This document shows, one piece after another, positions 28,162-60,021 of a stretch of DNA of 64,000 bases. Source of the DNA: Ruminococcus flavefaciens (GTDB lineage Bacteria > Bacteroidota > Bacteroidia > Bacteroidales > P3); the NCBI GenBank assembly GCA_023667315.1, contig JAMPAI010000009.1, positions 16,219 to 80,218 of the forward strand, written 5' to 3'. The position numbers and the translations under genes are program-made. Position 1 is the first letter of the stretch. Each line of letters begins with the position of its first letter. The notes beneath the pieces were generated by a model. The model was given only the letters and a program-made list of their open reading frames with translations, was not told where the DNA came from and did no database searches.

Positions 28162-28184
28162 GGGCATAAGTCATTTTCTTTTAG

Positions 28185-28192
28185 TATATTTG
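28185..28192 (+). promoter_or_regulatory. -7 promoter box of the GLUG/Big_2 surface-protein gene
   Basis: TATATTTG fits TAnnTTTG. The implied leader of about 120 bases is unusually GC-rich at first. It holds a perfect 12-bp palindrome GCCGGATCCGGC (28213-28224) and a GTCCG...CGGAC inverted repeat (28232-28258), then turns AT-rich before the ATG. Confidence 0.55.
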
Positions 28193-28318
28193 TGGGTTTT
28201 GAGTCCGGGCCGGCCGGATCCGGCTTTTGTTGTCCGGCGGCGGGAATGCCCGGCGGACGTTACGGATTATTTTAGTTTAGCAACAAACAACCAAGTATTA
28301 ACCAATAAATTAACTTTA

Positions 28319-32350: not shown

Positions 32351-32376
32351 TTGCCTTTAAACAAAAGGCAGAACGG

Positions 32377-32411
32377 AATCCTCCGGAAGGCAGCTTCCGG
32401 AGGATTTTTTT
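32377..32411 (+). terminator. Intrinsic terminator after the GLUG/Big_2 gene
   Basis: A perfect 13-bp stem AATCCTCCGGAAG / CTTCCGGAGGATT with a four-base loop ends in a T-run. Confidence 0.92.
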
Positions 32412-32443
32412 GCCCCGTCCCGACCTTGTCTTTCCTTAATATA

Positions 32444-32474
32444 TTGTATATGTGATTGTAATTTATTATCTTTG
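32444..32474 (+). promoter_or_regulatory. Conserved promoter of array paralog 1
   Basis: A -33-like ATTG, an exact 20-bp spacer and the -7 box TATCTTTG (32467-32474). The spacer TATATGTGATTG... is nearly identical to the promoters of paralogs 2-4. Confidence 0.8.
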
Positions 32475-32480
32475 TCGGTT

Positions 32481-32498
32481 AATGAGAAAAGACTCATT
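32481..32498 (+). ncRNA. 5'-terminal stem-loop in the paralog 1 leader
   Basis: AATGAG pairs with CTCATT around loop AAAAGA, starting about six bases after the -7 box. That is at or near the predicted mRNA 5' end. It is the smallest of three such stem-loops in the array. Confidence 0.45.
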
Positions 32499-32547
32499 CT
32501 ACGAAACTTACTAATTCACTAAATACAAACCAAAAAAATCTTTTAGA

Positions 32548-35500
32548 ATGAAGAAGTTACTCTTCTCGAGCCTCACGGCTCTAACGATGCTCTTCTCGTT
32601 TGTCGGCATGGCCAAGGCTGATACTGGCGATGCTGCGACAACGGCGAAAGCCAAAGTAAAAGTGGAGTTGTCTCCCGCCACCTTCAAGTCAGGGGCCACC
32701 GAAAACCTCCCCGAGTTCACTGTTTCCATTACGCAGGCGCCTGCCGAAACGGGCGGCGAAAGCGTTGATCCTCAAGCCGAAAACGACATCGTTTTGGGTA
32801 CGGCCGAAGGCAACGTGGCTGTAAAGGTAAGCTTTAAGAAAGGCGAGACCGAAAAGACGCAGGTTCTCACCTCTACTCCGGTCGATTTGGCCATCACCGA
32901 CCTTACGGAAGGCGAATGGACGTTGGCCTATGTCCTGGTGAAAGGCAACGAAAACACCGCCGATTTCGAGGGTGATGCCGAGATGGACGATGCCTCCACC
33001 GACAAGTTGACCGTGGAAGCCGCCGCTCCCGCCGAAACCAAACCCGACACGGTTACCGTAACACTTAGCACGGACAAATGGGAAATGGGCAAGCAAATGA
33101 GGCCTACCGTCAACGTACAGATTAAGAATGTTGCCCCCAGCACGCTCAAGATCGGTAAGACGGAAAGCGATGTGGCGGTGTTGGTTACATTTACGAAAGG
33201 CGAAGAAACGCCGATAAAGAGGATCTTTACCGGAAGTGCAAGCCTTCTTGCCGCCCAGACCGATAGCATGACCGTCGGCGACTATGCCATCACCTATCAG
33301 CTGGTAAAGGGAAACTCCACGGACGCCAGTGTTACGAATATCGAGGCCTCGGTAGCGGTTGTATCCGCCGGCTCGGCCAGCAAGTTTACCGTGGAACAAG
33401 GCACGGTGGCCACCCCGACCTTCACCAAGGAAGAAGGAGCCGTTGACGAAGGTACGGAAGTAAGGATTAAAACCTCCACCAACGGTGCCAAGATTTACTA
33501 CACCACCAACGGTGATGCTCCCACCGAATCCAGCACGGAATACACAACCCCCGTTGTCGTTAACCAAGCCATGACCATCAAGGCCATCGCCGTTAAGGAA
33601 GGTTGGAAGAACTCGGCCGTTGCCGAAGCCGCCTACACGATTGCCGAGCTTCCCGCTGATGCTGAAGACGCGCCCGCAATCACCCTGAGTCCCGCCCCCG
33701 CCGACAGCGTGGACAACAACACCGAAATCTTTATTACCGCCCCCGCCGGCTACAAGGTTTATTATATCTCCTTCTCCTCCATAAGCGAAGCTGCAGAGTT
33801 TGTTGAAATGTTACCCCATCTTCCTTCCTCGGCACTCGCTTACTATATGCAGGCCTATGGAACGAACATTCCCACCGTTACCGATGAGGCCCCCATTCTT
33901 GGAATCGTTCTTGTGGGTGATGACACCTACACGTATTGCCGCCGCTACAAGGTGCGTAAGGGCAGCGATGTGGAGATGCCGTATTTCATGACGGAATTCG
34001 GCGCACGGAGTGGCGTGGTTGACAAAGGCACGGAACTGAACATTGTTCAGGATGAAGAACTCGATATCTGGTACACCACCGACGGTTCGACACCCGCCGT
34101 TAACGGCGCCACTTCCACGAAAGGCGAGGGTATAGCCAAGATCAAGATCGATTCTTCGATGACGGTAAAGGCCATTGCCGTTACCGAAGACGGGGAAACC
34201 TCCGATGTGGCCGTTGCCCGGTTCAAGATTTTCGAAGACGTGGAAGCCACGCTTGCCATTGATGGAAATATGGTCGTGATGAAAGGTGATACGGTAGGCA
34301 AGAACATTGCACTGCCGTTTTCCATAGAAAGCGCCGATTTAGGAAACGAACTGCAGGATTTGCTGTATGAACATCCTTTTACGGTGTATTACACCACCGA
34401 CGGCAAGACCGAACCTTCGGAAGACGAATACTATGAATTGAAGGCCAAGGATTCCGCCAACAATCCCATCAAGATGGCAGCTATGGAAACCGATGAGTAT
34501 GGAGACATTATAATGCCTTCCGTGTTGCTTTCCGAAAGTCCTGTAACCCTGAAGGCAAAGGGTTACCTGATGTTGGGCGAAACCTCGGAAGAAGGCATGC
34601 TTGTTACAGCCACACTCACCAAGACCTTTGTCCTTAAAGAAGAACAGCGTCCCGAATTCAGCATTTCTTCCGGCAGCGAAATCAAGGCGGGCGACACCCT
34701 TACCGTTAAGAATCCCGGCACGGAAGAGCTTGCTTCGACAATGTACTTCAGCTTCGATGGAACGCAACCCTCGCAAGATGCGTATTTTGCGATAGATTGG
34801 AATGGTGTTTACAATATTTTCAAGACCAACGAAGGCGAAGACCTCAAGATAATCTTCGGTAAAGACGCCAAAGGCATGTATGCCCACGTTCCGGCCATCT
34901 ACGAACTCCTTTACAAGCAGGATACCATACGCTTCGAGGAAGAATTCTCCGTGGAAGTGATTTGCTACTCTGCGATAGAAACCGGAAACTATAACATGAT
35001 GGGCCGTCCTGAAATGTTCCAATACGCTTCCGATTTCGTGAAAGCCGGATACACGGTGATGAACGACCTTCCCAAGCCGGTGATCACGCCTAATGGCGGT
35101 GCGGTGGCCAAGGGAACGAAGGTTGAGATTGCCTCGACCCACCCGGGTGCCCAGATCTACTACTCGATCAACGCCGACACGGTAACGGCCAACAGCGCGC
35201 TGTATGTAGCCGCCGACGGCATCATCATCGACAAAGACAGCATCACCGTCCGCGCCATCGCGGTCAAGAAGACCGAAGGCAAGGCCGACTCGGTGTCGAA
35301 CATCGCCGAAGCCTTCTTTACGCTGATGGATACGGTGAAGGCTCCCGTAATCACCCCCAACGGCGGTGAAGTGGAAAAGGGCACGAAGGTAACGGTGGCC
35401 TGTGCCACCGAAGGCGCGATTGTACGCTACACGACCGACGGCAGCGAACCGACGGCCACCAGCAACGAATATGACGCCGAAACGGGCATCGTGATCAACG

Positions 35501-36093
35501 AAGCGCTCACGCTTAAGGTGATGGCCGTAAAAGAAGGCATGATCAACTCGCAGGTGGTAAGCGCCGAGTTTACGGTAAAGGCCGCTCCCATCGTGGAAAA
35601 AGACACCTTGCCTATGCCCAAGTTCAGCGTGGCCGCGGGCGAAGTGAAGGAAGGCACGAAAGTGGCGCTGAGCTGCGACACGGCTTCCGCGAAGATCTAC
35701 TACACGGTAGATGGCAGCGTTCCGACGGAAAAGAGCACGGAATACAAGGGCGAGATCACGATCGACAAGGCGATGACGATCAAGGCGATCGCGGTGAAGG
35801 AAGGCTTTGTAAGCTCGAAGGTTGCGGAAGCGGCCTACACGATCGAAACGGCCAACGAAGGCCGTGAGCTTGCGGGCGTGCGCCTGTACCCGAACCCGAC
35901 GGACGGCAACTTCAGCGTGGAAGCCCCGGTGGCCGCCAAGGTGGAAATCTTCAGCGCCAACGGCGTGATCGTGAAATCGTTCACGATGGCTGCCGGCGTT
36001 GAGGAAGTACGCCTCAATAACAGCGGCATCTACTTCGTACGCCTCACGGCCGAAAACGGCCAGGCAGCGGTAAAACGCGTAATCGTACGGTAG
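32548..36093 (+). CDS. Array paralog 1: secreted multi-module T9SS protein (chitobiase-C-like repeats)
   Basis: The 1,181-residue protein starts with signal peptide MKKLLFSSLTALTMLFSFVGMAKA. Two copies of an unnamed module of about 115 residues follow (about 33-152 and 168-286, each with W...VxVxFxKGE...LT and a Y.LVKGN ending). The rest is chitobiase/beta-hexosaminidase C-terminal-like (CHB_HEX_C) modules with the hallmark GAKIYYTTNGDAPT...MTIKAIAVKEG: about 288-365, 472-562, 842-928, 929-1014 and 1021-1102. More divergent modules lie between them. A T9SS sorting domain ends it (1103-1181, YPNPTDGNFSVEAP...GIYFVRLTAENGQ). No enzyme domain is visible; a structural or adhesive surface role is inferred. 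It is acidic overall and monocistronic, with its own promoter and terminator. Confidence 0.85.
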   Translation: MKKLLFSSLTALTMLFSFVGMAKADTGDAATTAKAKVKVELSPATFKSGATENLPEFTVSITQAPAETGGESVDPQAENDIVLGTAEGNVAVKVSFKKGETEKTQVLTSTPVDLAITDLTEGEWTLAYVLVKGNENTADFEGDAEMDDASTDKLTVEAAAPAETKPDTVTVTLSTDKWEMGKQMRPTVNVQIKNVAPSTLKIGKTESDVAVLVTFTKGEETPIKRIFTGSASLLAAQTDSMTVGDYAITYQLVKGNSTDASVTNIEASVAVVSAGSASKFTVEQGTVATPTFTKEEGAVDEGTEVRIKTSTNGAKIYYTTNGDAPTESSTEYTTPVVVNQAMTIKAIAVKEGWKNSAVAEAAYTIAELPADAEDAPAITLSPAPADSVDNNTEIFITAPAGYKVYYISFSSISEAAEFVEMLPHLPSSALAYYMQAYGTNIPTVTDEAPILGIVLVGDDTYTYCRRYKVRKGSDVEMPYFMTEFGARSGVVDKGTELNIVQDEELDIWYTTDGSTPAVNGATSTKGEGIAKIKIDSSMTVKAIAVTEDGETSDVAVARFKIFEDVEATLAIDGNMVVMKGDTVGKNIALPFSIESADLGNELQDLLYEHPFTVYYTTDGKTEPSEDEYYELKAKDSANNPIKMAAMETDEYGDIIMPSVLLSESPVTLKAKGYLMLGETSEEGMLVTATLTKTFVLKEEQRPEFSISSGSEIKAGDTLTVKNPGTEELASTMYFSFDGTQPSQDAYFAIDWNGVYNIFKTNEGEDLKIIFGKDAKGMYAHVPAIYELLYKQDTIRFEEEFSVEVICYSAIETGNYNMMGRPEMFQYASDFVKAGYTVMNDLPKPVITPNGGAVAKGTKVEIASTHPGAQIYYSINADTVTANSALYVAADGIIIDKDSITVRAIAVKKTEGKADSVSNIAEAFFTLMDTVKAPVITPNGGEVEKGTKVTVACATEGAIVRYTTDGSEPTATSNEYDAETGIVINEALTLKVMAVKEGMINSQVVSAEFTVKAAPIVEKDTLPMPKFSVAAGEVKEGTKVALSCDTASAKIYYTVDGSVPTEKSTEYKGEITIDKAMTIKAIAVKEGFVSSKVAEAAYTIETANEGRELAGVRLYPNPTDGNFSVEAPVAAKVEIFSANGVIVKSFTMAAGVEEVRLNNSGIYFVRLTAENGQAAVKRVIVR

Positions 36094-36107
36094 TATCCTC
36101 CATATCT

Positions 36108-36169
36108 CCAGGGTAAAACCCCTTGGAAAGCAAAAATCCCGTCAGGCAACCGCCTGGCGGGATTTTTTT
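36108..36169 (+). terminator. Double-hairpin 3' end of paralog 1
   Basis: A small hairpin (CCAGGG...CCCCTTGG, 36108-36126) precedes a strong terminator stem AATCCCGTCAGGC / GCCTGGCGGGATT (36135-36164), which ends in a T-run. The same pair recurs after paralogs 2-4. Confidence 0.88.
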
Positions 36170-36198
36170 ATCCCCATCGTTTGGGGTGTCTCACCCCC

Positions 36199-36220
36199 GT
36201 GGATAGCCGTGAAAATAAGA
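36199..36220 (+). repeat. 22-bp spacer repeat, copy 1
   Basis: Begins GTGGATAGCCGTG and ends AAAATAAGA. Identical copies lie at 39463-39484 and 39517-39538, and a two-mismatch copy at 44250-44271; all are in spacers after array genes. Confidence 0.85.
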
Positions 36221-36372
36221 ACCATTCGGGTTCAGGAACATTCTGTTCACGGCACGCCTTTATGATCCGTTTTGCCCCGAACCCCAGTTTTCAAGAAAGG
36301 TAGTTGCGGCATCCTGAAAAATCATTTGGAAGAAAGGTTTTGTATATGTGATTGTGTTTTATTATATTTGCC
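36221..36372 (+). repeat. Duplicated spacer/promoter segment, copy A
   Basis: This segment, starting ACCATTCGGGTTC and running through the paralog 2 promoter, is closely matched by 40419-40571 before paralog 3 (for example CATTCTGTTCACGGCACGCC in both). It shows that paralogs 2 and 3 were duplicated together with upstream DNA. Confidence 0.8.
36338..36370 (+). promoter_or_regulatory. Conserved promoter of array paralog 2
   Basis: -33 TTTTG (36338-36342), a 20-bp spacer and -7 TATATTTG (36363-36370): a full match to the Bacteroidota sigma-ABfr promoter. Confidence 0.85.
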
Positions 36373-36374
36373 AT

Positions 36375-36429
36375 GCTCCGGCAGTTTGTGTTTAGTGAGT
36401 GAGTTCTTGAGCATCATGATTGCCGGAGC
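36375..36429 (+). ncRNA. 5'-terminal stem-loop in the paralog 2 leader
   Basis: GCTCCGGCA (36375-36383) pairs perfectly with TGCCGGAGC (36421-36429) over a 37-base loop. The left arm begins five bases after the -7 box, so the stem would close the extreme 5' end of the mRNA. Confidence 0.6.
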
Positions 36430-36481
36430 TTATTTGAAGAAACAGCGTACCCTATAATTATTAACCAAAAAATTTTTTAGA

Positions 36482-39361
36482 ATGAAGAAGTTACTTTTTT
36501 CGAGCTTTACAGCTCTAACGATGCTCTTCTCCATGGTCGGTTTTGCGCGGGCGCAAGACACCGAGGAGACGGCCCCGACCATCTTGCCGGAATTGGTGGC
36601 CACCCCGGCCAGCGGCGAGGTGGCCGCAGGATCGGTGATTGAATTCACGATACCGGCGGAATACGTCATGATGCCTGTGTATCTCCTTTACACGATCAAT
36701 AACGAATCAACGGAGATTAACGCGACTTTTGATGAGTTGATGGGCTATGGTTTTGAAGGGGATTTGAATAACTGCAAGGTGGCCGCGGCCATGGAAGGGC
36801 TTTGGCGTGTGCCTTGCGCCATCCCGGCTGATGTGATGGGAGAAATCAAATTGAGGGCTCGTATGTTCACGTTCGTGCCTTCGGAGGAAGAGGATGCCGA
36901 CCCGACTGTGATCGCTTCTGAAGTGAAAGAGTTTACGTATACTGTAAAAGAGGCGGGTCCCGTTGTGGTACCTGTTCCGACTTTCGACCCTGAAGGCGGC
37001 GATGTGGAAATGAACACTACGGTGAAAGTTGAATGTAATGAAGAACCCGCTGAGTACTATTGCATGTATACAGCCTATTGGGTTCTCGACAACGAAGAAT
37101 TCGACTTTACTCAATACGACAGCGAGGAAACTGTAGAGGAAGCAGGTGCCAAGTATACCACCCCCAGGATTACCAAGGAAACGAAGGTAACGGCGGCCAC
37201 GGCAAAAATCGACATGATGCAGGAAAAGATTGTCGGCTGGTCCGAAAAGGTTACGATGACCTACACCATTGCCCCCGAAATAGCCCTTACCTTTGATCCT
37301 GCCGACGGCGCCACCGTGGATGCCGGCACGAAGGTTACGATTACGGCCAACAAAGAAGTTGACGAAATCAATTTCAAGATGTATGCCAACCTGGAAGAAG
37401 CTCAGAATGCAAACATGTCGGAATTGTTCAGTGGAATTTACAGCGAAACCAATAAACCCGAAATCACGGCTGCCGCACCGGTTCTTAAAGCAGCTGTAGT
37501 TGAGGGTGGTTGGAAAGTGTTCTATGCTTCCTATACCGTTAACGGCGGCGGTTCGGAAGAACCCGAAGAAAAGCCGGCCTTGATCATGAATCCCGACGGC
37601 TCGGAACCTGTGCCTGCCAATCAGGAAATCACGATTACCCGTGCAGCCGACGCTACCACCGATGGCAGCATCATCTACAAGCTGTACGCCGATATGGCCA
37701 CGGCCACGGCCGACAACGGCTTTACCGAAAACTTTATCTTTACCACGTTTAACGAATATGAAACGGCACATCCGGTCATTACCGAAGAAGCCCCCGTTCT
37801 GGCGGTAGGTATCGCCAATGTGGGAGACTTTGCCTCTTGGATTGTAAAGCCGGTGTATGTGGAATATACGGTTCAGGGCGCCGAACCCGCGCTCGTTACG
37901 CTTAGCCCCGACGGCTCGGCCCCCGTTAAGGAAGGCCAGGAAATTACCATCAGCTGGACAGACGAATCCCTTACCGCCGTGGATATAAAGTACAAGTGGT
38001 ACGCTTCTATGACGGAAGCCCACGCCGATGGCGACTTTAAAGACTACGTAGGCGGCGGCGCCGAATTCTACAGTGAAGGCAAACCGGTGGTTACCAAGGC
38101 CAAGCCTGTTTTGGGTGTAGGTGTTACCGACCCCGACACATGGGAAAAGAAAGGAGACATCGTGTATGTAACCTATACCGTGGAAGACGCCGATCCCACC
38201 GATGAAATCGTGTTGACGTTCGATCCCGAGGGCAATGCCGATATGGGTATCTTCGGTTCCTCGCCCGTCGTGCTTATGGAAGGCGACACGGTAACCATCA
38301 CGCCTTCCGACAATGCAAAAGGCACCATCTACTATGTGTTCAGCGGCTCGACCCTGGAGGGCGGAGATTTACTGGAAACCGCCAAGACCGAGGAGATGGA
38401 TACCGCAGTAAAGGTATATGACCCCGCCCACAAGCCCACGCTTCCCTACAAGACGGAAGGCGCGGAAGACGGCCTCTGCTTCCTCTGCGCCATCTTCAAG
38501 GGAGAAGACGGCGAATGGTCGAGGATGTATTCGGCCAACTACGAGGTAACCTCCTCCTTCGCCCTGACCATTCCCCAGCCGGTGTTCACCCCCGTTGCGG
38601 GCGAATACACCGACAGCGTGTATGTGCAGATTTCCTGCTCGGATCCCACCCTGGAGATCGTATATGCCTACGGCTACGATATGGTCCAGATTCCCGACAA
38701 GGACTATTATCCGAAAGATTCGGTAGGGTTCAAGGGCCTGCTGGTTAAATCGACCACCGAAATCTATGCCCGTACTATTTCCCGCCGCGACGAGAATTCC
38801 TCCTGGGAGTATTCGCCCCTGGTAACCGCCAAATACACGATCAAGAAGAGCGGTGAGGTGGAAGAACCCGACACGCTTCCGGCGCCCAAGTTCAGCGTGG
38901 CCGCCGGAGAAGTGAAGGAAGGCACGAAGGTGGCGCTGAGCTGCGACACGGCTTCCGCGAAGATCTACTACTCGATCAACGCCGACACGGTAACGGTAAA
39001 CAGCGCCGAATACACGGGCGAGATCACGATCGACAAAGCGATGACGATCAAGGCGATCGCGGTGAAGGAAGGCTTTGTAAGCTCGAAGGTTGCGGAAGCG
39101 GCCTACACGATCGAAACGGCCAACGAAGGCCGTGAGCTTGCGGGCGTGCGCCTGTACCCGAACCCGACGGAAGGCAACTTCAGCGTGGAAGCTCCCGTAG
39201 CTGCCAAGGTTGAAATCTTCAACGCCAGCGGTTTGATCGTAAAAGCCTTCAAGATGGCGGCCGGCGTTGAGGAAGTGCGCCTGGCCAACAGCGGCATCTA
39301 CTTCGTACGCATCACGGCCGAAAACGGCCAGGTAGCGGTAAGACGCGTGGTGGTACGCTAG
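36482..39361 (+). CDS. Array paralog 2: secreted multi-module T9SS protein
   Basis: The 959-residue protein starts with signal peptide MKKLLFSSFTALTMLFSMVGFARA. The middle (about 265-575) has three copies of a roughly 100-residue module beginning LxPDGSxPVxxGxEITI, with a YK.YA central strand and a PVL.VGI...YTV end. Next is a block of about 210 residues (578-790, PSDNAKGTIYYVFSGSTLEGGD...) shared almost unchanged with paralog 4. One canonical CHB_HEX_C module (about 797-880, SAKIYYSINADTVTVNSAEY) and the T9SS sorting domain (881-959) follow. It lacks the LVKG-ending module of paralogs 1, 3 and 4. A surface role is inferred; no catalytic motif is seen. It is a monocistronic unit with the shared promoter and terminator architecture. 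Confidence 0.83.
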   Translation: MKKLLFSSFTALTMLFSMVGFARAQDTEETAPTILPELVATPASGEVAAGSVIEFTIPAEYVMMPVYLLYTINNESTEINATFDELMGYGFEGDLNNCKVAAAMEGLWRVPCAIPADVMGEIKLRARMFTFVPSEEEDADPTVIASEVKEFTYTVKEAGPVVVPVPTFDPEGGDVEMNTTVKVECNEEPAEYYCMYTAYWVLDNEEFDFTQYDSEETVEEAGAKYTTPRITKETKVTAATAKIDMMQEKIVGWSEKVTMTYTIAPEIALTFDPADGATVDAGTKVTITANKEVDEINFKMYANLEEAQNANMSELFSGIYSETNKPEITAAAPVLKAAVVEGGWKVFYASYTVNGGGSEEPEEKPALIMNPDGSEPVPANQEITITRAADATTDGSIIYKLYADMATATADNGFTENFIFTTFNEYETAHPVITEEAPVLAVGIANVGDFASWIVKPVYVEYTVQGAEPALVTLSPDGSAPVKEGQEITISWTDESLTAVDIKYKWYASMTEAHADGDFKDYVGGGAEFYSEGKPVVTKAKPVLGVGVTDPDTWEKKGDIVYVTYTVEDADPTDEIVLTFDPEGNADMGIFGSSPVVLMEGDTVTITPSDNAKGTIYYVFSGSTLEGGDLLETAKTEEMDTAVKVYDPAHKPTLPYKTEGAEDGLCFLCAIFKGEDGEWSRMYSANYEVTSSFALTIPQPVFTPVAGEYTDSVYVQISCSDPTLEIVYAYGYDMVQIPDKDYYPKDSVGFKGLLVKSTTEIYARTISRRDENSSWEYSPLVTAKYTIKKSGEVEEPDTLPAPKFSVAAGEVKEGTKVALSCDTASAKIYYSINADTVTVNSAEYTGEITIDKAMTIKAIAVKEGFVSSKVAEAAYTIETANEGRELAGVRLYPNPTEGNFSVEAPVAAKVEIFNASGLIVKAFKMAAGVEEVRLANSGIYFVRITAENGQVAVRRVVVR

Positions 39362-39374
39362 TAAGCCTCCATAT

Positions 39375-39436
39375 CCAGGGTAACTCCCCTGGAAAGCAAA
39401 AATCCCGTCAGGCAACCGCCTGGCGGGATTTTTTTT
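39375..39436 (+). terminator. Double-hairpin 3' end of paralog 2
   Basis: CCAGGG/CCCTGG hairpin (39375-39392), then AATCCCGTCAGGC / GCCTGGCGGGATT (39401-39430) with a T-run to 39436. The second stem is identical to that of paralog 1. Confidence 0.88.
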
Positions 39437-39462
39437 GTCCCCAAGCTTGGAGTCTTACCCTT

Positions 39463-39484
39463 GTGGATAGCCGTGAAAATAAGA
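39463..39484 (+). repeat. 22-bp spacer repeat, copy 2
   Basis: Identical to copy 1. It is followed by a 32-base unique stretch and then copy 3. Confidence 0.85.
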
Positions 39485-39516
39485 ACTTGCTGATTCAATT
39501 GGTTTTAAGTTCCAGT

Positions 39517-39538
39517 GTGGATAGCCGTGAAAATAAGA
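39517..39538 (+). repeat. 22-bp spacer repeat, copy 3, abutting the ATPase fragment
   Basis: Identical to copies 1 and 2. Its last base is directly followed by the stop codon (TTA on the plus strand) of the minus-strand ATPase-like gene. Confidence 0.85.
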
Positions 39539-40423
39539 TTAAGCGTAAAACGGCACGTACGTGGAATATTTCTTAGAATCGGAACCCTCATCGGCTGATT
39601 TTATTAATCCGGCAACCACTGTATCGGCAAGGATTCGGGTTGCCGTAGGTGCTTGATTTTTATTAAGTCCGAATCTTGTACGTATCGATTGATTGCTGAT
39701 GGGAGCATTGTCTTCCCACATTAGGCACGCATGTTGATAACAGGCTTCGATTCTTTCCTTTTTTGCCATTTTAGCCAAAGGCTTGGGAGGATATAAGGTA
39801 ACTCGGGTGTAGTCTTCAAGGTTTTGAAATTTAACCGGAGGTAAAAGCATGCTTTCAACAGCTTTTACAGCCCTATCCACCCCGCTTCCCCGGCGTTCAC
39901 ATATTCGAAGCAGGAGCATGGCCTGTGCAAGTTTTTCGTTTCGGGAACGAGGTGGCATATCGATCAATCGGTTTATGTTGTTCAATGTGGCTCCGGGATT
40001 GGTGATAACAAGTCGGTTATTGAAAATTTCGACGGCTATGGGGGAACCCTCTATGGCAAAATCTTGATGAATCAAGGCATTTGCCAGGAATTCCCGGATG
40101 GCTACCTGAGGGTAAATGGGCAAAAGTTCCCGGGAAACGCTTATTTGTTCCTTTCCGGTATGAGACATGATATAGTCGATCAGACCTTTAAAACCGGCGG
40201 CATAACCATGCATATCGTGATAGTCGTGCAAAAGTTGTTGGTTGTTGGAGCCTGCATATATTCGTACAACAACTTCACGACCGCATAAGGCCGGGAAATC
40301 ATTAAAATCTTTTGCGAATAGAATGGCTCCGAGATTAGTGATTGTCCATCCTTCTTTTTCTTTTCGACAAAACCCGTATTCTTTCAAAGTGTCCAAGATG
40401 GCATCTGTCGATAAAGGGACCAT
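39539..40423 (-). pseudogene. 5'-truncated ATP-binding protein (AlbA/Schlafen-HATPase type)
   Basis: The 294-residue open frame carries the C-terminal half of the common ATP-binding putative transcriptional regulator family. Its segments are GWTITNLGAILFAKDFNDFPAL, the HATPase-like IREFLANALIHQDFAIEGSPIAVEIFNNRLVITNPG, and NEKLAQAMLLLRICERRGSGVDRAV, then a winged-helix-like tail ending YVPFYA. Full-length relatives have an N-terminal AlbA_2/Schlafen-like domain of roughly 150-200 residues that is absent here. The start codon itself lies in flanking array-spacer DNA (ACCAT, matching 36221-36225). The gene therefore looks cut off at the insertion point and is probably nonfunctional, though the frame is intact. 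GC content is visibly lower than its neighbours. Confidence 0.7.
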
Positions 40424-40571
40424 TCGGATTCCGGAACATTCTGTTCACGGCACGCCTTTATGATCCGTTTTGCCCCCGAGCCCCAGTTTTCAAGGAAGGT
40501 GGTCACGGCATTCTAAAAAATCATTTGGAAGAGATGTTTTGTATATGCGATTGTATTTTATTATCTTTGCT
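40419..40571 (+). repeat. Duplicated spacer/promoter segment, copy B
   Basis: Near-copy of 36221-36372, beginning ACCATTCGGATTC. In copy A this sequence directly follows the 22-bp repeat; here the two are separated by the ATPase fragment. Confidence 0.8.
40537..40569 (+). promoter_or_regulatory. Conserved promoter of array paralog 3
   Basis: -33 TTTTG (40537-40541), 20-bp spacer, -7 TATCTTTG (40562-40569). Confidence 0.85.
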
Positions 40572-40573
40572 GT

Positions 40574-40631
40574 GCCCCTGGGTGGTTTGTATTCAATTAG
40601 TAAGTTTCGAAAATCAGATTTGCCCGGGGGT
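40574..40631 (+). ncRNA. 5'-terminal stem-loop in the paralog 3 leader
   Basis: GCCCCTGGG (40574-40582) pairs with CCCGGGGGT (40623-40631): nine pairs including two G-U. It starts exactly five bases after the -7 box, as in paralog 2. The arm sequences differ from paralog 2 while pairing is kept. Confidence 0.6.
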
Positions 40632-40679
40632 TTATTAAAAAGACAGAACCTAATTTATTAACCAAAAAAAATTCTTAGT

Positions 40680-43600
40680 ATGAAGAAGTTACTATTCTCG
40701 AGCTTCACGGCTCTAATGATGCTCTTCTCGATGTTCGGCCATGTCCGGGCGCAAGGGACGAGCGAAACGGCAAAACCCAGTATAGCATTGCTTTCTCTGG
40801 CGATGGATGAACTTACAGACAATGCAGAAATCAGTAAGTACGTTCCTATTACCGTGTCTATCATGGAGGGATCATCCGAATACGATTATGAGACGGCAGA
40901 TGTTTACTACACAATTAATGGCGGCGATATTGAGCCCACGAAAGAAAACTTTACGGCAGACGGTCCCGTTAAGAAGATCACTGTCGATGGAGGAATGAAT
41001 CAGGGCGGTATCGAAGTTAATGTTAACGGTACGGAAATAACAGTAAAAGCAAAGGCATACATCACTGTAGCAGGAGAAGACGCCGAAGTTGTTACAGATG
41101 TTAAGACAGTATCGTTGAAACTTAAACATCTGGATGCTCCTCAATTTGAACAGGCTTCCGGTTCGACGATAAAGATGGGAAATGCGGTAAAGCTTACCGG
41201 TATTCCTGAAGATGCGCATGTTTTTTATTCAACTACAGATGTTCTTCCTGCCATGTTGAATTATGGCCAAGTGGCCGGTATAGAGCCGTATGACGAAAAT
41301 GGAGGTATCGTTATTACAGAAAATGTAACCATCAAGGCTATCGCATGGGCAGAAGATGACGATTTAGTCTTTGTGGCTTCGGATATGGTAACGGCTTCCT
41401 ATACGGTGCAGAAACCCCAGGTAACCGTTGCCTTGAGCGCCACCGCCTGGAGTGAAGGCGAAGACGCCCCCAAGGTAAGCGTTACGCCCGAGGAAGGCAT
41501 TGAAATCGGTGCTCTGGCCGACGGTAAGGTGGCCGTAAAGGTGGACTTGTTCAAGATGGACGCCTATCCCGAAGAAACAGCGGTTCAGTATATCACCGCA
41601 ACCGGTGAAACGGCGTTGGAAACGGAAAAACTGACCAAAGGCGTATGGTTTTTATCCTACACGCTTGTTAAAAAAGAAGAAGATAAGGAAGTTGTATTCG
41701 ACGGTGCCGAAATCAAGGTCGCCGAAGACGATATGTCGCTTACGGTGGGCGGCGCGGAAAACAGCCTTGTTTTAAGCGTACAGTTCAAGCCGGCGAAGTG
41801 GGAAATCGGTTCCGAAGCCCCCTTGATGGTTATGGCCGGCATCACCAACGACGACAACCTTTCTTTCGGCACGGACGACGACAACAGCGAAATCGTCGTG
41901 CTGATCACCTTTACCAAAGACAGCGAAATCAAGAAGTATCTTTTAACGCAGTCGTTTGGCGAAATCGATCCTGAAGAACTGGGATTGACCGAAGGAACCT
42001 GGGAAGTAACCTATAAGGCGGGTAAAGCCACTTCCACCATCGAGAACTTCACCGAACTGGAACGTACGGTGGAAATGGCGACGACCACGACCACGAGCAT
42101 AGAGATCGTTGCGGCAACGGTGCTCGAGCTGACCTTTGATCCCGCTCACAACGCCGAGGTTAAAAGCGGCGATACGATTACCATTACGGCCAACGTGGAC
42201 GATGTAAACATCTATTTCTGCACCTATGCAAGTAAGGATGCTGCAGAAAAAGACGATACCCTCAATATTGTTAGGAACGGTATCAGGTACGGTGAATTCG
42301 ACGAAGATGACGACGAGGTGGGCAAGCCTATCGTTACCTCTACCAAACCGGTGGTTAAGGCTGGCGTGAATGTAGGTGACGAATGGCAGTTCTTCTATGC
42401 CGTTTATGATATTGAATCGACCGAGCCCGAAATCACCCTGTACTTTGTTGACGAGACCTTCGGCAAGAACTTCCCCATGGAACTCAACATCGAATGTGAG
42501 GAAAACCCAGCCTACGAACGCGCCGACTTCCATGTTTACTACACCACCGACGGTTCCGAACCTTCTGAAGAAGCCTACAAGGCCCAGGGCGCTGCCGGCG
42601 GCCCGGTTAAGATGACGGGCTACTACCAGGACAAAGACGGTGCCTGGATCTATCCCACCATCACGCTTTCCGCCTATGCAACGGTAAAGGCCGTGGCCAC
42701 CGTAAAGGTCGGCACCGACAAGACCATCGCCACCTCGATGATCACCAAGGAATTCAATGCCGAAAACTTCCAGGTCTTGGCCAAGAACCCCGCTTTCAGC
42801 GAAAGCGCGCAGGAAGTGGCCAAAGGAACGAAGGTAAAGATCAACGTTGAAAAACCGGAAGGCTTGACATCCGACCAGATGTTTATCGTTAACTATACGC
42901 TGGACGGTTCCGACCCGCTTGAAGAACGCTTGCTGAACGACATGAGCGGCGACATGCAGGATGTCATCAAATCCTACGACTACGAAAACGAAGAAGAAAT
43001 CACCATCGACTCCAACACGACCATCAAGGCCATCGCCTATGTAATATGGTACGGTGGCGGGATGATGAAATATGAAGATGAATACGGCTACGGTTCCGAC
43101 ATCGTGGAACACACCTACCTTATCGCCAAAGACATTGCCATGCCGGTGATCACCCCCAACGGCGGCGAAGTCAAGAAGGGAGACACCATTAGGCTCAGCG
43201 CTGCCGAAGGCGCCAGGATCTACTACTCGATCAACGCCGATACGGTAACCCCCAACAGCACGCTGTATGTTGCCGCCAACGGTATCGTCATCGACAAAGA
43301 CACCACCACCGTCCGCGCTATTGCGGTCAAGAAGACCGAAGGCCAGTCCGACTCCGTGTCGAACATCGCCACGGCCACGTTCACGGTTAAGAAAGACACC
43401 GTGGCCGCTCCCAAATTCAGCGTAGCGGCCGGTTCGGTGGAAAAAGGCACGAAAGTCCGCATTACCTGCGACACGGCCGGTGCCGACATCTACTACACCG
43501 TAAACGGCGGTAACCCCACGGTGGCCAGCACCAAGTACGAGGACGAAATCTCGATCGACAGCAACATGACCATCAAGGCTGTCGCCATCAAGGCCGGTTT

Positions 43601-44141
43601 GGTAAACTCGGCCATCGTTACGGCAGCCTACACGCTTAAGGGCGACGAACCCGAAAAGGACACCGTGGCCGCTCCTACCTTCAACCACAGGGACGGCGAC
43701 AAGGTTAAGGTGGGCGACAGCGTGGTGATAAGCTGCGTTACCGAAGGCGCCGAAATCTTCTACGCCCTCGACACGGCTTCCACGTTCGTTAAATACGAAA
43801 GCGCCATCAAGGTTACCAAGGCCGTTGCCGTAAAGGCCTACGCCAAGAAGGGTGAAGCGATTTCCGACACCGTTAAGGTTGCCCTTGTTATCGACAACAC
43901 TGCCAACGAAGGCAAGGAATTGGCCGGTGTGAGCGTATATCCCAACCCGAGCGACGGCCGTTTCAGCGTAAGCGTGCCCGTAAACGCGGTGGTTGAAGTG
44001 TTTGCCGCCAACGGCCGGATGATTAAGCGCGTAAACGTATCCGCCGGCGAAAACGCGATGCAGCTCGACAACGCGGGCGTATATTTTATCCGCGTACGCG
44101 CCAACGGTCAGGAAACCGTAAAGAAAGTGGTTGTACGATAG
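40680..44141 (+). CDS. Array paralog 3: secreted multi-module T9SS protein
   Basis: The 1,153-residue protein starts with signal peptide MKKLLFSSFTALMMLFSMFGHVRAQ. Two divergent CHB_HEX_C-like modules come first (about 30-240). Two copies of the LxxxxW...LTxGxWxxxY module follow (about 243-355 and 361-480). Next is one PVxKAGV-type module (about 482-582). Further chitobiase-C-like modules have VYYTTDGSEPSEEAY, GARIYYSINADTVT, ADIYYTVNGGNPTVAS and GAEIFYALDTAST. The T9SS sorting domain ends it (about 1078-1153, VSVYPNPSDGRFSVSVPV). Its sorting domain is clearly more diverged than those of paralogs 1, 2 and 4. The first 700 bases are more AT-rich than the rest. No enzymatic domain is seen. Confidence 0.83.
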   Translation: MKKLLFSSFTALMMLFSMFGHVRAQGTSETAKPSIALLSLAMDELTDNAEISKYVPITVSIMEGSSEYDYETADVYYTINGGDIEPTKENFTADGPVKKITVDGGMNQGGIEVNVNGTEITVKAKAYITVAGEDAEVVTDVKTVSLKLKHLDAPQFEQASGSTIKMGNAVKLTGIPEDAHVFYSTTDVLPAMLNYGQVAGIEPYDENGGIVITENVTIKAIAWAEDDDLVFVASDMVTASYTVQKPQVTVALSATAWSEGEDAPKVSVTPEEGIEIGALADGKVAVKVDLFKMDAYPEETAVQYITATGETALETEKLTKGVWFLSYTLVKKEEDKEVVFDGAEIKVAEDDMSLTVGGAENSLVLSVQFKPAKWEIGSEAPLMVMAGITNDDNLSFGTDDDNSEIVVLITFTKDSEIKKYLLTQSFGEIDPEELGLTEGTWEVTYKAGKATSTIENFTELERTVEMATTTTTSIEIVAATVLELTFDPAHNAEVKSGDTITITANVDDVNIYFCTYASKDAAEKDDTLNIVRNGIRYGEFDEDDDEVGKPIVTSTKPVVKAGVNVGDEWQFFYAVYDIESTEPEITLYFVDETFGKNFPMELNIECEENPAYERADFHVYYTTDGSEPSEEAYKAQGAAGGPVKMTGYYQDKDGAWIYPTITLSAYATVKAVATVKVGTDKTIATSMITKEFNAENFQVLAKNPAFSESAQEVAKGTKVKINVEKPEGLTSDQMFIVNYTLDGSDPLEERLLNDMSGDMQDVIKSYDYENEEEITIDSNTTIKAIAYVIWYGGGMMKYEDEYGYGSDIVEHTYLIAKDIAMPVITPNGGEVKKGDTIRLSAAEGARIYYSINADTVTPNSTLYVAANGIVIDKDTTTVRAIAVKKTEGQSDSVSNIATATFTVKKDTVAAPKFSVAAGSVEKGTKVRITCDTAGADIYYTVNGGNPTVASTKYEDEISIDSNMTIKAVAIKAGLVNSAIVTAAYTLKGDEPEKDTVAAPTFNHRDGDKVKVGDSVVISCVTEGAEIFYALDTASTFVKYESAIKVTKAVAVKAYAKKGEAISDTVKVALVIDNTANEGKELAGVSVYPNPSDGRFSVSVPVNAVVEVFAANGRMIKRVNVSAGENAMQLDNAGVYFIRVRANGQETVKKVVVR

Positions 44142-44157
44142 TATAGCCACCGCATTT

Positions 44158-44213
44158 CCAAGGGCTCAAGCCCTTCAAAAATCCCGCCAGGCGATTGCCC
44201 GGCGGGATTTTTT
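44158..44213 (+). terminator. Double-hairpin 3' end of paralog 3
   Basis: AAGGGC/GCCCTT hairpin (44160-44175), then AAATCCCGCC / GGCGGGATTT (44179-44210) with a T-run. Both stems have changed sequence relative to paralogs 1 and 2 but keep pairing. Confidence 0.85.
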
Positions 44214-44249
44214 ATTCTCTCCCATGTTTCTTGGGGGCATTCTTTTTCC

Positions 44250-44271
44250 GTGGATAGCGATGAAAATAAGA
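44250..44271 (+). repeat. 22-bp spacer repeat, copy 4 (diverged)
   Basis: Differs from copies 1-3 at two adjacent positions (GCGAT for GCCGT). It is followed by AACTTG, as in copy 2. Confidence 0.75.
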
Positions 44272-44313
44272 ACTTGAATCCGAAAAATTCACGCCAGGGG
44301 ATGGAGGAGATAG

Positions 44314-44347
44314 TTTTTGTATATGTGATTATCTTTTATTATTTTTG
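44314..44347 (+). promoter_or_regulatory. Conserved promoter of array paralog 4
   Basis: -33 TTTTTG (44314-44319), 20-bp spacer, -7 TATTTTTG (44340-44347). The leader is the shortest of the four (about 36 bases) and has no visible stem-loop. Confidence 0.8.
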
Positions 44348-44387
44348 TATTCAACTCACTAAATACAAACTCAAAAAACTTTTCATT

Positions 44388-47300
44388 ATGAAGAAGTTAC
44401 TTTTTGGGGGCTTCACGGCCCTGATGATGCTCTTCTCGCTGGTCGGCTTTGTCCGGGCAGAAGACAAGGCCAAGGTGACGGTTTCGGTTGAAGGAGCCTG
44501 GATTATAGGGAGCACGCCCCTTCCTAAATTTACCGTTGCAATAGAACAGATTAGCGAAAATGACGCAGACCAGATCGTAATGGGCACGGGTGCCGGAAAT
44601 CTGGCGGTAGAGGTTACCTTTGCCAAAGAAGCCGCCTCTACCCAAGATGGAGATGCCGATCAGGCCAAAACACAGATTCTAACGGCCAGGAACCCCAATG
44701 TAGATATCACCGGATTGGATGCCGGCACATGGAACCTTACCTACAGGTTGGTAAAGGGCGAAGCCCCCACTACCGCTTTCGACGGCAATGCAGAATTGAC
44801 GAATACAACGCCTTCTGTCCTTACCGTTAGCGAAGCCCCTGTGGTAACCTTTACCCCTTCGCCGGAAAACCCGGTTCAGGAAGGAACGGAAATTACCATT
44901 GGCGCTCCTTCCGAAGCTTTAATGGTAACGTGGTCCCTTTATAAGGATCAGGCGGCCGCCGATGCCGATGACTATCCAATCCCCAATATGTATCCGGAAT
45001 CCAAACCCGTTGTCTCTCTGGAAGAACAATATCTTAGGGTGACGGTAACGATTAACAGTAAAAGAATTGTTTATAACGCCAGTTACACGGTAACCGAAGC
45101 CGCCGTTAAGGCGCCCGTTTTCGAACCTGTTGCCGGTATTGTGAGCAAGGCTACGGATATCAAGATTACCGCTGCCGACGGTGCCGACATCTGGTACACG
45201 CTTGATGGTACGGAACCTGAAGCCGACGCAACCAAAGCCACGAAATATACTGAAGCCTTCAGGCTTACAGAAGCCTGCACGGTAAAGGCCATCGCCGTAA
45301 ATGGTAACGATAAGTCGGCCGTGGTGAGCGCCGCCTATACCTTGATAGAAGACAGCGATGCGGAACTGGATTTCGACACGGTGGCAGCCAAGAACTATCC
45401 TATCATGATGTCCATTAAAACGGAAAATTACACCATAATGGACGCGGAATACGATGTTTACTATACCACCGACAGAAGGACGACTCCCAGCAAGGAAGCC
45501 TTCGAAAGGAACCCCGACAGCACCATCAAGAAAACGGGTTACCATCTGATTCCCACGGATGATGGATGGGGCCGACGCGTATATGCGTATGCCGTTATGG
45601 AATCGAACGACACGCTTAAGGCGCAGGTCTATCTGACGATCAACAATGTGGAAATGCCCCTTCCCTTGGTGAAACGCGCCGTTCGGGTAAACTCCATTCC
45701 CGCCCCCAGAGCCAGCGTGGAATCAGGTTTGGTGGAAGCCGGCACCAAGATGGTGCTTAAGAGCGATTCCTCGGCGGCCGTCATTTACTACACGGTAGAT
45801 GGAACGGAGCCTCTTTACGAACGTATATTGGAAAATCAGGAACTTTTATATGACGGGACAATATCGGTTTGGTCTGACACGAGAATGGACGGCGGCGACA
45901 CCATCGTGATTACGAAAGATACCGTGATCAAGGCCATCGCCTATATCGAAAACAGCGGTGTGGGCGGTTTTGCAGGCAACGGCACGCCCAAAGACGGCGA
46001 ACCGGCCGGTTCGAGCGTGGTGGAATTCCGCTACACCGTTAAGCAGGCCCAGACCGCTCCCGCGCTGACGCTCAGCCCCGACGGCTCGGCTTCCGTAAAG
46101 GCGGGTACGGAAATCACGGTTTCCCGCTCCGCCTCTGCCCCCCAAACGGGCTATATCGCCTATAAGTTCTATGCCGACTCAGCCTCGGCCAAGGCCGACA
46201 ACAACTTTATGAGTTGGTACGAAGGTGCCGGTTTCTACGATGAATACGAAGGCAAAGACAAGCCCGTGCTTACGCAGGAACTTCCGGTAATCGCCATCGG
46301 CATTACCGACGACGGCAACGGTGACGCCGCCTACTGGCAGGTTGACCCGATTATCGTTAAATACACCGTAACCGAAGGCGATGCCGAAGAAGGCGTTGTA
46401 TTGACGTTCGATCCCGAGGGCAATGCCAGGATGGATATTTTCGGTTCCTCGCCCGTGGTGCTTATGGAAGGCGACACGGTAACCATCACGCCTTCCGACG
46501 ATGCGAAGGGCACCATCTACTACGTGTTCAGCGGCTCGACCCTGGAGGGCGGCGATCTGCTGGAGACCGCCAAGACCGATGAGATGGATGCCGCGGTAAA
46601 GGTATATGACCCCGCCAACAAGCCCACGCTTCCCTACAAGACACAAGGCGCGGAAGACGGCCTCTGCTTCCTCTGCGCCATCTTCAGGGGCGAAGACGGC
46701 GAATGGTCGAAGATGCATTCGGCCAACTACGAGGTAACCTCCTCCTTCTCCCTGACCATACCCCAGCCCGTGTTCACCCCCGCCGCCGGCGAGTACACCG
46801 ACAGCGTGTATGTTCAGATTACCTGCTCGGATCCCAACTTGGAGATCGTATATGCGTACGGTTACGATATGGTTCAATTTCCCGACAAGACCTATTATCC
46901 GAAAGATTCGGTAGGTTTCAAGGGGCTGCTGGTTAAATCGACCACCGAGATCTATGCGCGTACGGTATCCCGCCGCGACACCAATTCTTCGTGGGAGCAT
47001 TCGCCGCTGGTAACCGCCAAATACACGATCAAGAAGAGTGAAGACCCCGAAGCGGAAATGGACACTCTGCCTATGCCCAAGTTCAGCGTGGCCGCGGGCG
47101 AAGTGGACAAGGGCACGATGGTAACTTTGAGCTGCGACACGACCGGTGCCAAGATCTACTACTCGATCAATGCCGACACGGTAACGGCCAACAGCCAGGA
47201 ATACACCGCCGCCATTGCCATCGACAGCAACATGACCATCCGCGCGATCGCGGTGAAGGAAGGCTTCGTAAGCTCGGCCATCGCCGTGGCGGCCTATACG

Positions 47301-47561
47301 GTGAAGGAAGAAACCTCGGCCAACGAAGGCCGTGAGCTTGCGGGCGTGCGCCTGTACCCGAACCCGACGGAAGGCAACTTCAGCGTGGAAGCTCCCGTGG
47401 CCGTGAAGGTGGAAATCTTCGCCTCGAACGGCGTGATCGTGAAGGCCTTCACGATGTCTGCCGGCGTTGAGGAAGTACGCCTCAATAACAGCGGCATTTA
47501 CTTCGTACGCCTCACGGCCGAAAACGGCCAGGTAGCCGTAAAACGCGTGGTGGTACGATAG
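44388..47561 (+). CDS. Array paralog 4: secreted multi-module T9SS protein
   Basis: The 1,057-residue protein starts at the ATG at 44388 with signal peptide MKKLLFGGFTALMMLFSLVGFVRA. It has one LTxGxWxLxYxLVKG module (about 28-143). The SPxxxxPVQEGTEITI-type module follows (about 148-240). CHB_HEX_C modules follow (ADIWYTLDGTEPEADA, AEYDVYYTTDRRTTPS, AAVIYYTVDGTEPLYE). A second PDGS-type module lies at about 560-670. The long block shared with paralog 2 occupies about 672-884, then comes one terminal CHB_HEX_C module and a T9SS sorting domain (about 978-1057). An earlier in-frame start at 44250 would place hydrophilic sequence and the promoter inside the gene and is rejected. Confidence 0.83.
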   Translation: MKKLLFGGFTALMMLFSLVGFVRAEDKAKVTVSVEGAWIIGSTPLPKFTVAIEQISENDADQIVMGTGAGNLAVEVTFAKEAASTQDGDADQAKTQILTARNPNVDITGLDAGTWNLTYRLVKGEAPTTAFDGNAELTNTTPSVLTVSEAPVVTFTPSPENPVQEGTEITIGAPSEALMVTWSLYKDQAAADADDYPIPNMYPESKPVVSLEEQYLRVTVTINSKRIVYNASYTVTEAAVKAPVFEPVAGIVSKATDIKITAADGADIWYTLDGTEPEADATKATKYTEAFRLTEACTVKAIAVNGNDKSAVVSAAYTLIEDSDAELDFDTVAAKNYPIMMSIKTENYTIMDAEYDVYYTTDRRTTPSKEAFERNPDSTIKKTGYHLIPTDDGWGRRVYAYAVMESNDTLKAQVYLTINNVEMPLPLVKRAVRVNSIPAPRASVESGLVEAGTKMVLKSDSSAAVIYYTVDGTEPLYERILENQELLYDGTISVWSDTRMDGGDTIVITKDTVIKAIAYIENSGVGGFAGNGTPKDGEPAGSSVVEFRYTVKQAQTAPALTLSPDGSASVKAGTEITVSRSASAPQTGYIAYKFYADSASAKADNNFMSWYEGAGFYDEYEGKDKPVLTQELPVIAIGITDDGNGDAAYWQVDPIIVKYTVTEGDAEEGVVLTFDPEGNARMDIFGSSPVVLMEGDTVTITPSDDAKGTIYYVFSGSTLEGGDLLETAKTDEMDAAVKVYDPANKPTLPYKTQGAEDGLCFLCAIFRGEDGEWSKMHSANYEVTSSFSLTIPQPVFTPAAGEYTDSVYVQITCSDPNLEIVYAYGYDMVQFPDKTYYPKDSVGFKGLLVKSTTEIYARTVSRRDTNSSWEHSPLVTAKYTIKKSEDPEAEMDTLPMPKFSVAAGEVDKGTMVTLSCDTTGAKIYYSINADTVTANSQEYTAAIAIDSNMTIRAIAVKEGFVSSAIAVAAYTVKEETSANEGRELAGVRLYPNPTEGNFSVEAPVAVKVEIFASNGVIVKAFTMSAGVEEVRLNNSGIYFVRLTAENGQVAVKRVVVR

Positions 47562-47578
47562 TGTTAAGCGCCATATTT

Positions 47579-47641
47579 CCAGGGATAACCTCCTTGGATG
47601 CGGGAAGCCCGTCGGCCATTTGTCCGGCGGGCTTCTTTTTT
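47579..47641 (+). terminator. Double-hairpin 3' end of paralog 4
   Basis: A weak CCAGG/CCTTGG hairpin (47579-47597), then GAAGCCCGTCGG / CCGGCGGGCTTC (47604-47635) followed by TTTTTT. Confidence 0.85.
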
Positions 47642-47691
47642 GCCCCTGACGGGTTATTTCTGTTTTTACTTCACGGTATCACAAAAATGAA

Positions 47692-47699
47692 TATATTTG
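47692..47699 (+). promoter_or_regulatory. -7 promoter box of the TPR/HTH regulator gene
   Basis: TATATTTG fits TAnnTTTG, 20 bases before the ATG at 47720. It differs in its upstream half from the array promoters. Confidence 0.6.
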
Positions 47700-47719
47700 C
47701 TTGAAAAAGAAGATAAAAT

Positions 47720-59990: not shown

Positions 59991-60021
59991 GAATAGTTGA
60001 AACATTAAAACATTGCAATCA

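Follow-up and report, generated by a model that had tools for sequence, protein, structure and literature searches.

A tandem array of four probable T9SS cargo genes with shared promoters, mosaic coding sequences and a reversed leader segment

What is a row of four long genes, alike at both ends and mosaic between them, likely to provide for the bacterium that carries it? The question is raised by contig JAMPAI010000009.1 of GenBank assembly GCA_023667315.1 (listed as Ruminococcus flavefaciens; GTDB lineage Bacteroidota, Bacteroidales, P3). The stretch analyzed here (the window) comprises 64,000 nucleotides, forward-strand positions 16,219 to 80,218 of the contig, and holds between its own positions 32,444 and 47,641 four + strand genes, A-D, with products of 1181, 959, 1153 and 1057 amino acids. 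The family to which they belong is most plausibly a lineage-specific expansion among secreted proteins of a familiar type, the cargo of the type IX secretion system (T9SS). The odd feature of the array, and the one most worth pursuit, is a segment of leaders A and D whose reverse complement matches the loop of the hairpins predicted in leaders B and C.

Genes A (32548..36093), B (36482..39361), C (40680..44141) and D (44388..47561) encode proteins in which the opening MKKLLF, hydrophobic residues that are much alike in all four and, judged by eye, an A-x-A-like site together constitute a putative signal peptide. (In the case of D, the list of open reading frames (ORFs) gives a GTG start at 44250; the in-frame methionine of MKKLLF is at 44388, and the 1057 residues are counted from there.) All four proteins end in the T9SS type A sorting domain, scoring above the curated cut-offs of Por_Secre_tail (PF18962) and TIGR04183; the tails are encoded at about 35884-36087 (A), 39152-39355 (B), 43935-44135 (C) and 47352-47555 (D). 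The recognizable modules preceding the tails are chitobiase-C/Fn3-associated β-sandwiches: CHB_HEX_C_1 (PF13290) accounts for five stretches each in A and C, three in D and a single one in B, with whole-protein scores of 59-272 bits (the cut-off is 22). No catalytic domain of Pfam or NCBIfam is found in A-D, in which some regions without any match remain. On the four same-strand genes of 959-1181 codons, their common starts and sorting domains and the want of an enzyme domain, the initial annotation of the array is borne out.

Proteins with CHB_HEX_C_1 / Fn3_assoc repeats (PF13290 / PF13287) are the nearest relatives in domain content, the array proteins having 1-5 stretches over cut-off and modules whose folds match those of solved relatives. 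The array proteins differ in that their modules form or flank most of the recognizable protein, instead of being appended to an enzyme, and in that large middles, that of B above all, match no Pfam model. By sequence, protein A has no solved relative at E<=0.01. By fold comparison, modules and tail match solved β-sandwich and T9SS tail structures, and the module matches include entries on glycan-active enzymes (8ayr_A, for example, by its title); where B and C have middles without a match, fold prediction rested on a shallow alignment.

The search for export machinery covered SprA and the PorU sortase. The genome encodes both (SprA, TIGR04189, 2474 bits; PorU-type sortase, NF033707, 957 bits), which makes surface attachment the expected fate of A-D. 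Other type A cargo (PF18962 / TIGR04183) shares with the array these two components, the putative signal peptide and a sorting domain, which scores over the cut-off in each of A-D; the array differs in its tandem paralogs, in having no catalytic domain that could be found and in a promoter confined, in this genome, to the family. The initial annotation knew of no described system of this build; T9SS cargo is a described kind, and the domains belong to named Pfam families. (On contig C22, about 8 kb separate the gene for the PorU sortase from a two-gene locus that holds the further paralogs E and F; G000:C22:138325-141666 and C22:149667-158000.)

Each gene has a promoter of its own on the + strand: ATTG-20 bp-TATCTTTG before A (32443..32474), TTTG-20 bp-TATATTTG before B (36339..36370), TTTG-20 bp-TATCTTTG before C (40538..40569) and TTTG-20 bp-TATTTTTG before D (44316..44347). 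The distance from the upstream box (TTTG in B, C and D; ATTG in A) to TANNTTTG is 20 bp in every case, and 15 of the 20 spacer positions are invariant among the six paralogs A-F. A 31-base promoter pattern, searched with up to 3 mismatches, finds six places in the genome, namely the four of the array and two before E and F (C22, L009), and the same pattern reversed finds none. The near-identity of the promoters that had been claimed at the outset is thus confirmed as likeness beyond chance. The pattern has no match in 60 related genomes; as far as those genomes show, the exact promoter is private to this gene family in this species.

The promoter type itself is a familiar one. Promoters of sigma-ABfr, known from B. 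fragilis and B. thetaiotaomicron (PMC7366714, in the sections available), likewise combine TANNTTTG with an upstream TTTG-type box at a distance of about 20 bp, and the same kind is known from Flavobacterium (PMC9723704, also in part). Judged by their boxes, promoters A-F are of this sigma-A (sigABfr) type; what distinguishes the array family from Bacteroides is the conserved spacer.

The reversed segment lies downstream of the promoters, in the leaders of A (32475..32547), B (36371..36481), C (40570..40679) and D (44348..44387), all on the + strand. Leaders B and C contain predicted hairpins (at about 36375-36429 and 40574-40631, respectively), and it is the loops of these hairpins that recur as reverse complement in A and D: an inverted-repeat search pairs 32502-32532 of leader A with 40579-40609 of leader C (81%) and 36383-36400 of leader B with 44354-44371 of leader D (94%). 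The segment was picked post hoc, among 85 inverted-repeat pairs and 15 leader pairs. Reverse-complement alignment scores 21.0 for A:C (equaled by none of 1000 shuffles), 15.5 for B:D (1/1000) and 13.5 for A:B (3/1000). Among 406 control pairs formed by 29 other leaders of the genome the maximum is 15.5. Because A:C exceeds all of these, its complementarity is solid; B:D, matched by one control pair of the 406, and A:B, surpassed by one, are supportive. Predicted duplex energies are -37.8 (A:C), -34.5 (A:B), -27.7 (B:D) and -24.0 kcal/mol (D:F), each unmatched in 1000 shuffles (dinucleotide shuffles, as in the alignment tests). Not every pair fits the pattern: the C:D duplex is weak (86/1000), as is the D:F alignment (211/1000), and among the 15 leader pairs A:D, A:E and D:E have nothing notable. 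In two other species no comparable reverse-complement match was found, the highest score (13.0) being between two near-identical leaders that each have a hairpin. The leader element of A occurs elsewhere in the genome in no copy but its own at up to 3 mismatches, a pattern that the gapped forms in B and C escape.

How might such a segment come to be reversed? Template switching is known to invert hairpin loops in RNA genes (PMC8794818, as far as the available part of that paper goes), a mutation in which the segment between two hairpin arms is reversed between related sequences. The likeness to the present case is evident, as are the differences: about 30 bases of an mRNA leader are involved here, mostly 4 and at most 7-8 there, and in A and D the arms are lost or weak. 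Hairpin-loop inversion is the cheapest reading of the reversed leader segment. Compared in a single orientation, the loop of C matches A at 31 of 34 positions, B matches D at 16 of 17, A matches D at 17 of 18 and B matches C at 27 of 35. Whichever way the segment arose, some mRNA leaders of the family are complementary to one another. An invertible promoter (inverton) was considered as well and rejected, the promoters having one orientation in all six members and the reversed segment beginning only downstream of them. A scan of window proteins that covers part of the window's ORFs shows no recombinase gene nearby.

The leaders also merit attention for length and structure. Counted between the -7 box and the start codon, they are 73 (A), 111 (B), 110 (C), 40 (D), 90 (E) and 109 (F) bases long; the median 5' untranslated region of B. 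thetaiotaomicron is given as 32 in the part of PMC7366714 available. One strong hairpin near the transcript start is predicted in leaders B, C, E and F. Its outer arms, compared by reading in these four sequences (too few for a covariation test), differ and yet still pair, with G-U pairs in C and F, a pattern more in keeping with an RNA structure than with two DNA recombination sites. Family members in two other genomes (G003 and G007) have strong leader hairpins of unrelated sequence.

A hairpin in the leader is nevertheless rejected as a hallmark of the family. In a first small set of leaders (n=12) strong structure was found only in a further, more distant member, G; fourteen family members set against 18 other T9SS cargo genes show no difference (Mann-Whitney p 0.28), nor do the seven members of this genome (p 0.40). 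(The controls are 20 genes drawn from 74 places with T9SS tails in the genome, less two for which no start was found; folding z-scores use mononucleotide shuffles.) Six of the 18 control leaders reach z -2.4 or lower, and leader hairpins may be common in the cargo mRNAs of this genome. Strongly folded leaders, with 110-nt z-scores of -2.7 to -8.8, belong to the unrelated T9SS cargo genes L080 (G000:C22:225950-226850), L066, L072, L074, L078 and L081; the hairpin of L080 has a stem of about 20 pairs and follows soon after its TACCTTTA box. Upstream of cargo genes L018 and L029, in two genomes of the genus, there are palindromic stretches that look alike by eye (of the GCAGAAGCC ... GGCTTCTGC type in L029), perhaps a small repeat family. 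Rfam has no match at gathering score in 32300-47800.

Downstream of the stop codons, all on the + strand, A has a hairpin followed by a terminator-like hairpin with a T run (36094..36169), and B (39362..39437), C (44142..44213) and D (47562..47641) have two predicted hairpins each. The double-hairpin 3' ends of the initial annotation are thus present in all four genes. As a mark of the family they fail: by reading of the sequence, the unrelated gene preceding the array also has two (32350-32420), E has one long hairpin, F has a terminator hairpin and then another, and G has one. A 22-base repeat on the + strand follows the terminator of A, that of C and, in two copies, that of B; sequence search finds it at 36199..36220, 39463-39484, 39517-39538 and 44250-44271 (the last with 2 mismatches); the genome holds no further copies at up to 2 mismatches. 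The sequence beyond the terminator of E begins a stretch that is like this repeat. The flank before promoter B (36225..36338) is homologous to 40423-40537 before promoter C, and the similarity runs on through promoter and leader (36225-36573 and 40423-40771 are 80.6% identical), which indicates that duplications carried the upstream flank along. A minus-strand gene between B and C (39539-40423) has an HATPase_c_4 domain without a recognized N-terminal domain, and on that strand the flanks before promoters B and C can be taken for a piece that resembles the end of a gene of this kind.

The family extends beyond the array. In its own genome, protein A matches E and F (C22) and, more distantly, G (C11); remoter genes share mainly the tail. 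At E<=1e-30, with up to 11 candidates scored in each genome, relatives are found in at least 10 of 61 genomes: its own, at least 7 of the 12 that belong to its genus and at least 2 among 24 that represent other genera of the bacterial family. One same-genus genome, G003, has members with near-identical leaders on two short contigs. Other named genomes yield one weak locus, in a Verrucomicrobiia bin (34% identity). The supposition that the four-gene build is unique does not survive the additional members on C22 and C11 and the relatives in other species of the genus. Similarity within the family is mosaic. D and E, on separate contigs, are co-linear across 836 residues (64%); within the array, what B has in common with D is limited to the last 519 residues (74%). 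Tail DNA identity follows locus for the most part: 93.8% for E-F, 91.7% for A-D, 88.7% for A-B and for B-D, as against 84.6% for D-E. Nine estimates of the ratio of nonsynonymous to synonymous substitution rates (dN/dS) range from 0.14 to 0.57, all below 1, and thus give no hint that point changes are under positive selection. The diversity of the family comes from its modules; with the exception of the tail of C, the conservation of the signals at both ends and the mosaic middles look as they might after duplication with recombination. No description of this protein family was found in the literature searched, in which subscription papers are thinly covered.

From the gene layout, promoters, domains, SprA and PorU genes and mosaic similarity so far described, we infer transcription, export, attachment and function of A-D along the following lines. 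Each gene would be its own transcription unit, in which a promoter of the sigma-A (sigABfr) type, its spacer conserved in this family alone, is followed by a leader, a single reading frame and a terminator. The signal peptide would carry the product across the inner membrane, passage through SprA would follow, and the PorU sortase would remove the type A tail and join the product to the surface, leaving exposed a chain of β-sandwich modules. Since no catalytic domain is found in this chain, a structural, adhesive or glycan-binding surface fiber is its most likely role. The genes would have arisen by duplication together with their flanks, the end signals being kept or homogenized and the modules between them shuffled and diverging. 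In short, A-D probably constitute a lineage-specific, recombining T9SS cargo family with shared expression signals. The surface or matrix protein family produced from parallel cassettes, as it had been conceived, stands as to separate units, T9SS tails, SprA and PorU; the matrix or adhesive role stays presumptive. S-layer protein genes offer a further comparison, in that they too specify large surface repeat proteins and have strong promoters and long-lived mRNAs (PMC8056022, in part); promoter and structured leader would suggest strong expression here as well, but leader structure is no stronger in the array than in other cargo genes, and neither lattice nor abundance is in evidence.

Several observations weigh against a recombining family with shared expression signals. 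Part of the promoter identity could be explained by shared ancestry alone, without selection, and the location of the genes does not predict how alike their promoters are (C-E, at 0.968, equals E-F). The tail of C is 66-72% identical to that of every other member and thus not homogenized. The structure models are poor overall (mean predicted local distance difference test score, pLDDT, 47 for A and 36 for B), which limits what they say of most of the middles. The assembly is 98.9% complete, 4.98% contaminated and divided among 88 contigs.

Of the other explanations, the one to be taken most seriously, possible if on balance doubtful, is that the modules are carbohydrate-binding partners of the bacterium's surface enzymes and constitute a glycan-binding scaffold instead of a fiber or adhesin. 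The naming of CHB_HEX_C_1/Fn3_assoc after a chitobiase/hexosaminidase domain, the fold matches to modules of glycan-active enzyme entries and a T9SS-tailed RGI_lyase-domain protein in the window (60013-63924) speak for it; the modules come without a catalytic domain in all four proteins, and a common sandwich fold is no proof of sugar binding. It is unlikely that the displayed protein is changed by active switching or gene conversion within the array. Conserved ends, mosaic middles, the several loci and the two contigs of G003 are what antigenic variation would produce, but an intact promoter before each of the four genes means that there is no single expression site, and paralogs at least 8% apart even in their tails argue against recent exchange within the array. 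The dN/dS estimates and the absence of a recombinase from the window ORFs that were scanned point the same way, and with no switching device identified, the antigenic diversity suggested by the initial annotation gains no direct support. Misassembly of a single gene is very improbable: the genome is fragmented and 4.98% contaminated, but the four genes differ in module content, in length and in at least 8% of their DNA even in the tails, and relatives' genomes also have several members.

It is improbable, too, that base-pairing of leaders A and D with the loops of the B and C hairpins (perhaps also that of F) lets paralogs silence or stabilize each other. Four duplexes unmatched by shuffling and an A:C alignment above every control pair favor such cross-talk; the post hoc choice of the segment, the unremarkable or weak C:D, A:D, A:E, D:E and (by alignment) D:F combinations, the control pairs that equal B:D or surpass A:B and the want of a similar match in two other species do not, and loop inversion yields the same complementarity without function. 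A shade less probable again is the more elaborate proposal that the leaders form a trans-pairing set tuning the choice of surface protein, with loop orientation as a heritable setting that hairpin-loop inversion could flip without promoter inversion.

More genes with T9SS tails flank the array. A Big_2/GLUG protein (28145-32350), its tail below cut-off, precedes it; a subtilase (49626-51791), an Omp28 protein (51794-53692) and the protein with the RGI_lyase domain follow.

The array would be a clean test case for the role of leader hairpins in the mRNAs of T9SS cargo, and if its leaders do pair, paralogous surface proteins would have a new way of regulating one another. If A-D are indeed a recombining cargo family with shared expression signals, then they would be one more example of Bacteroidota surface variety that comes about through parallel genes with common expression and export signals at their ends and exchangeable middles, and not through one switchable locus.

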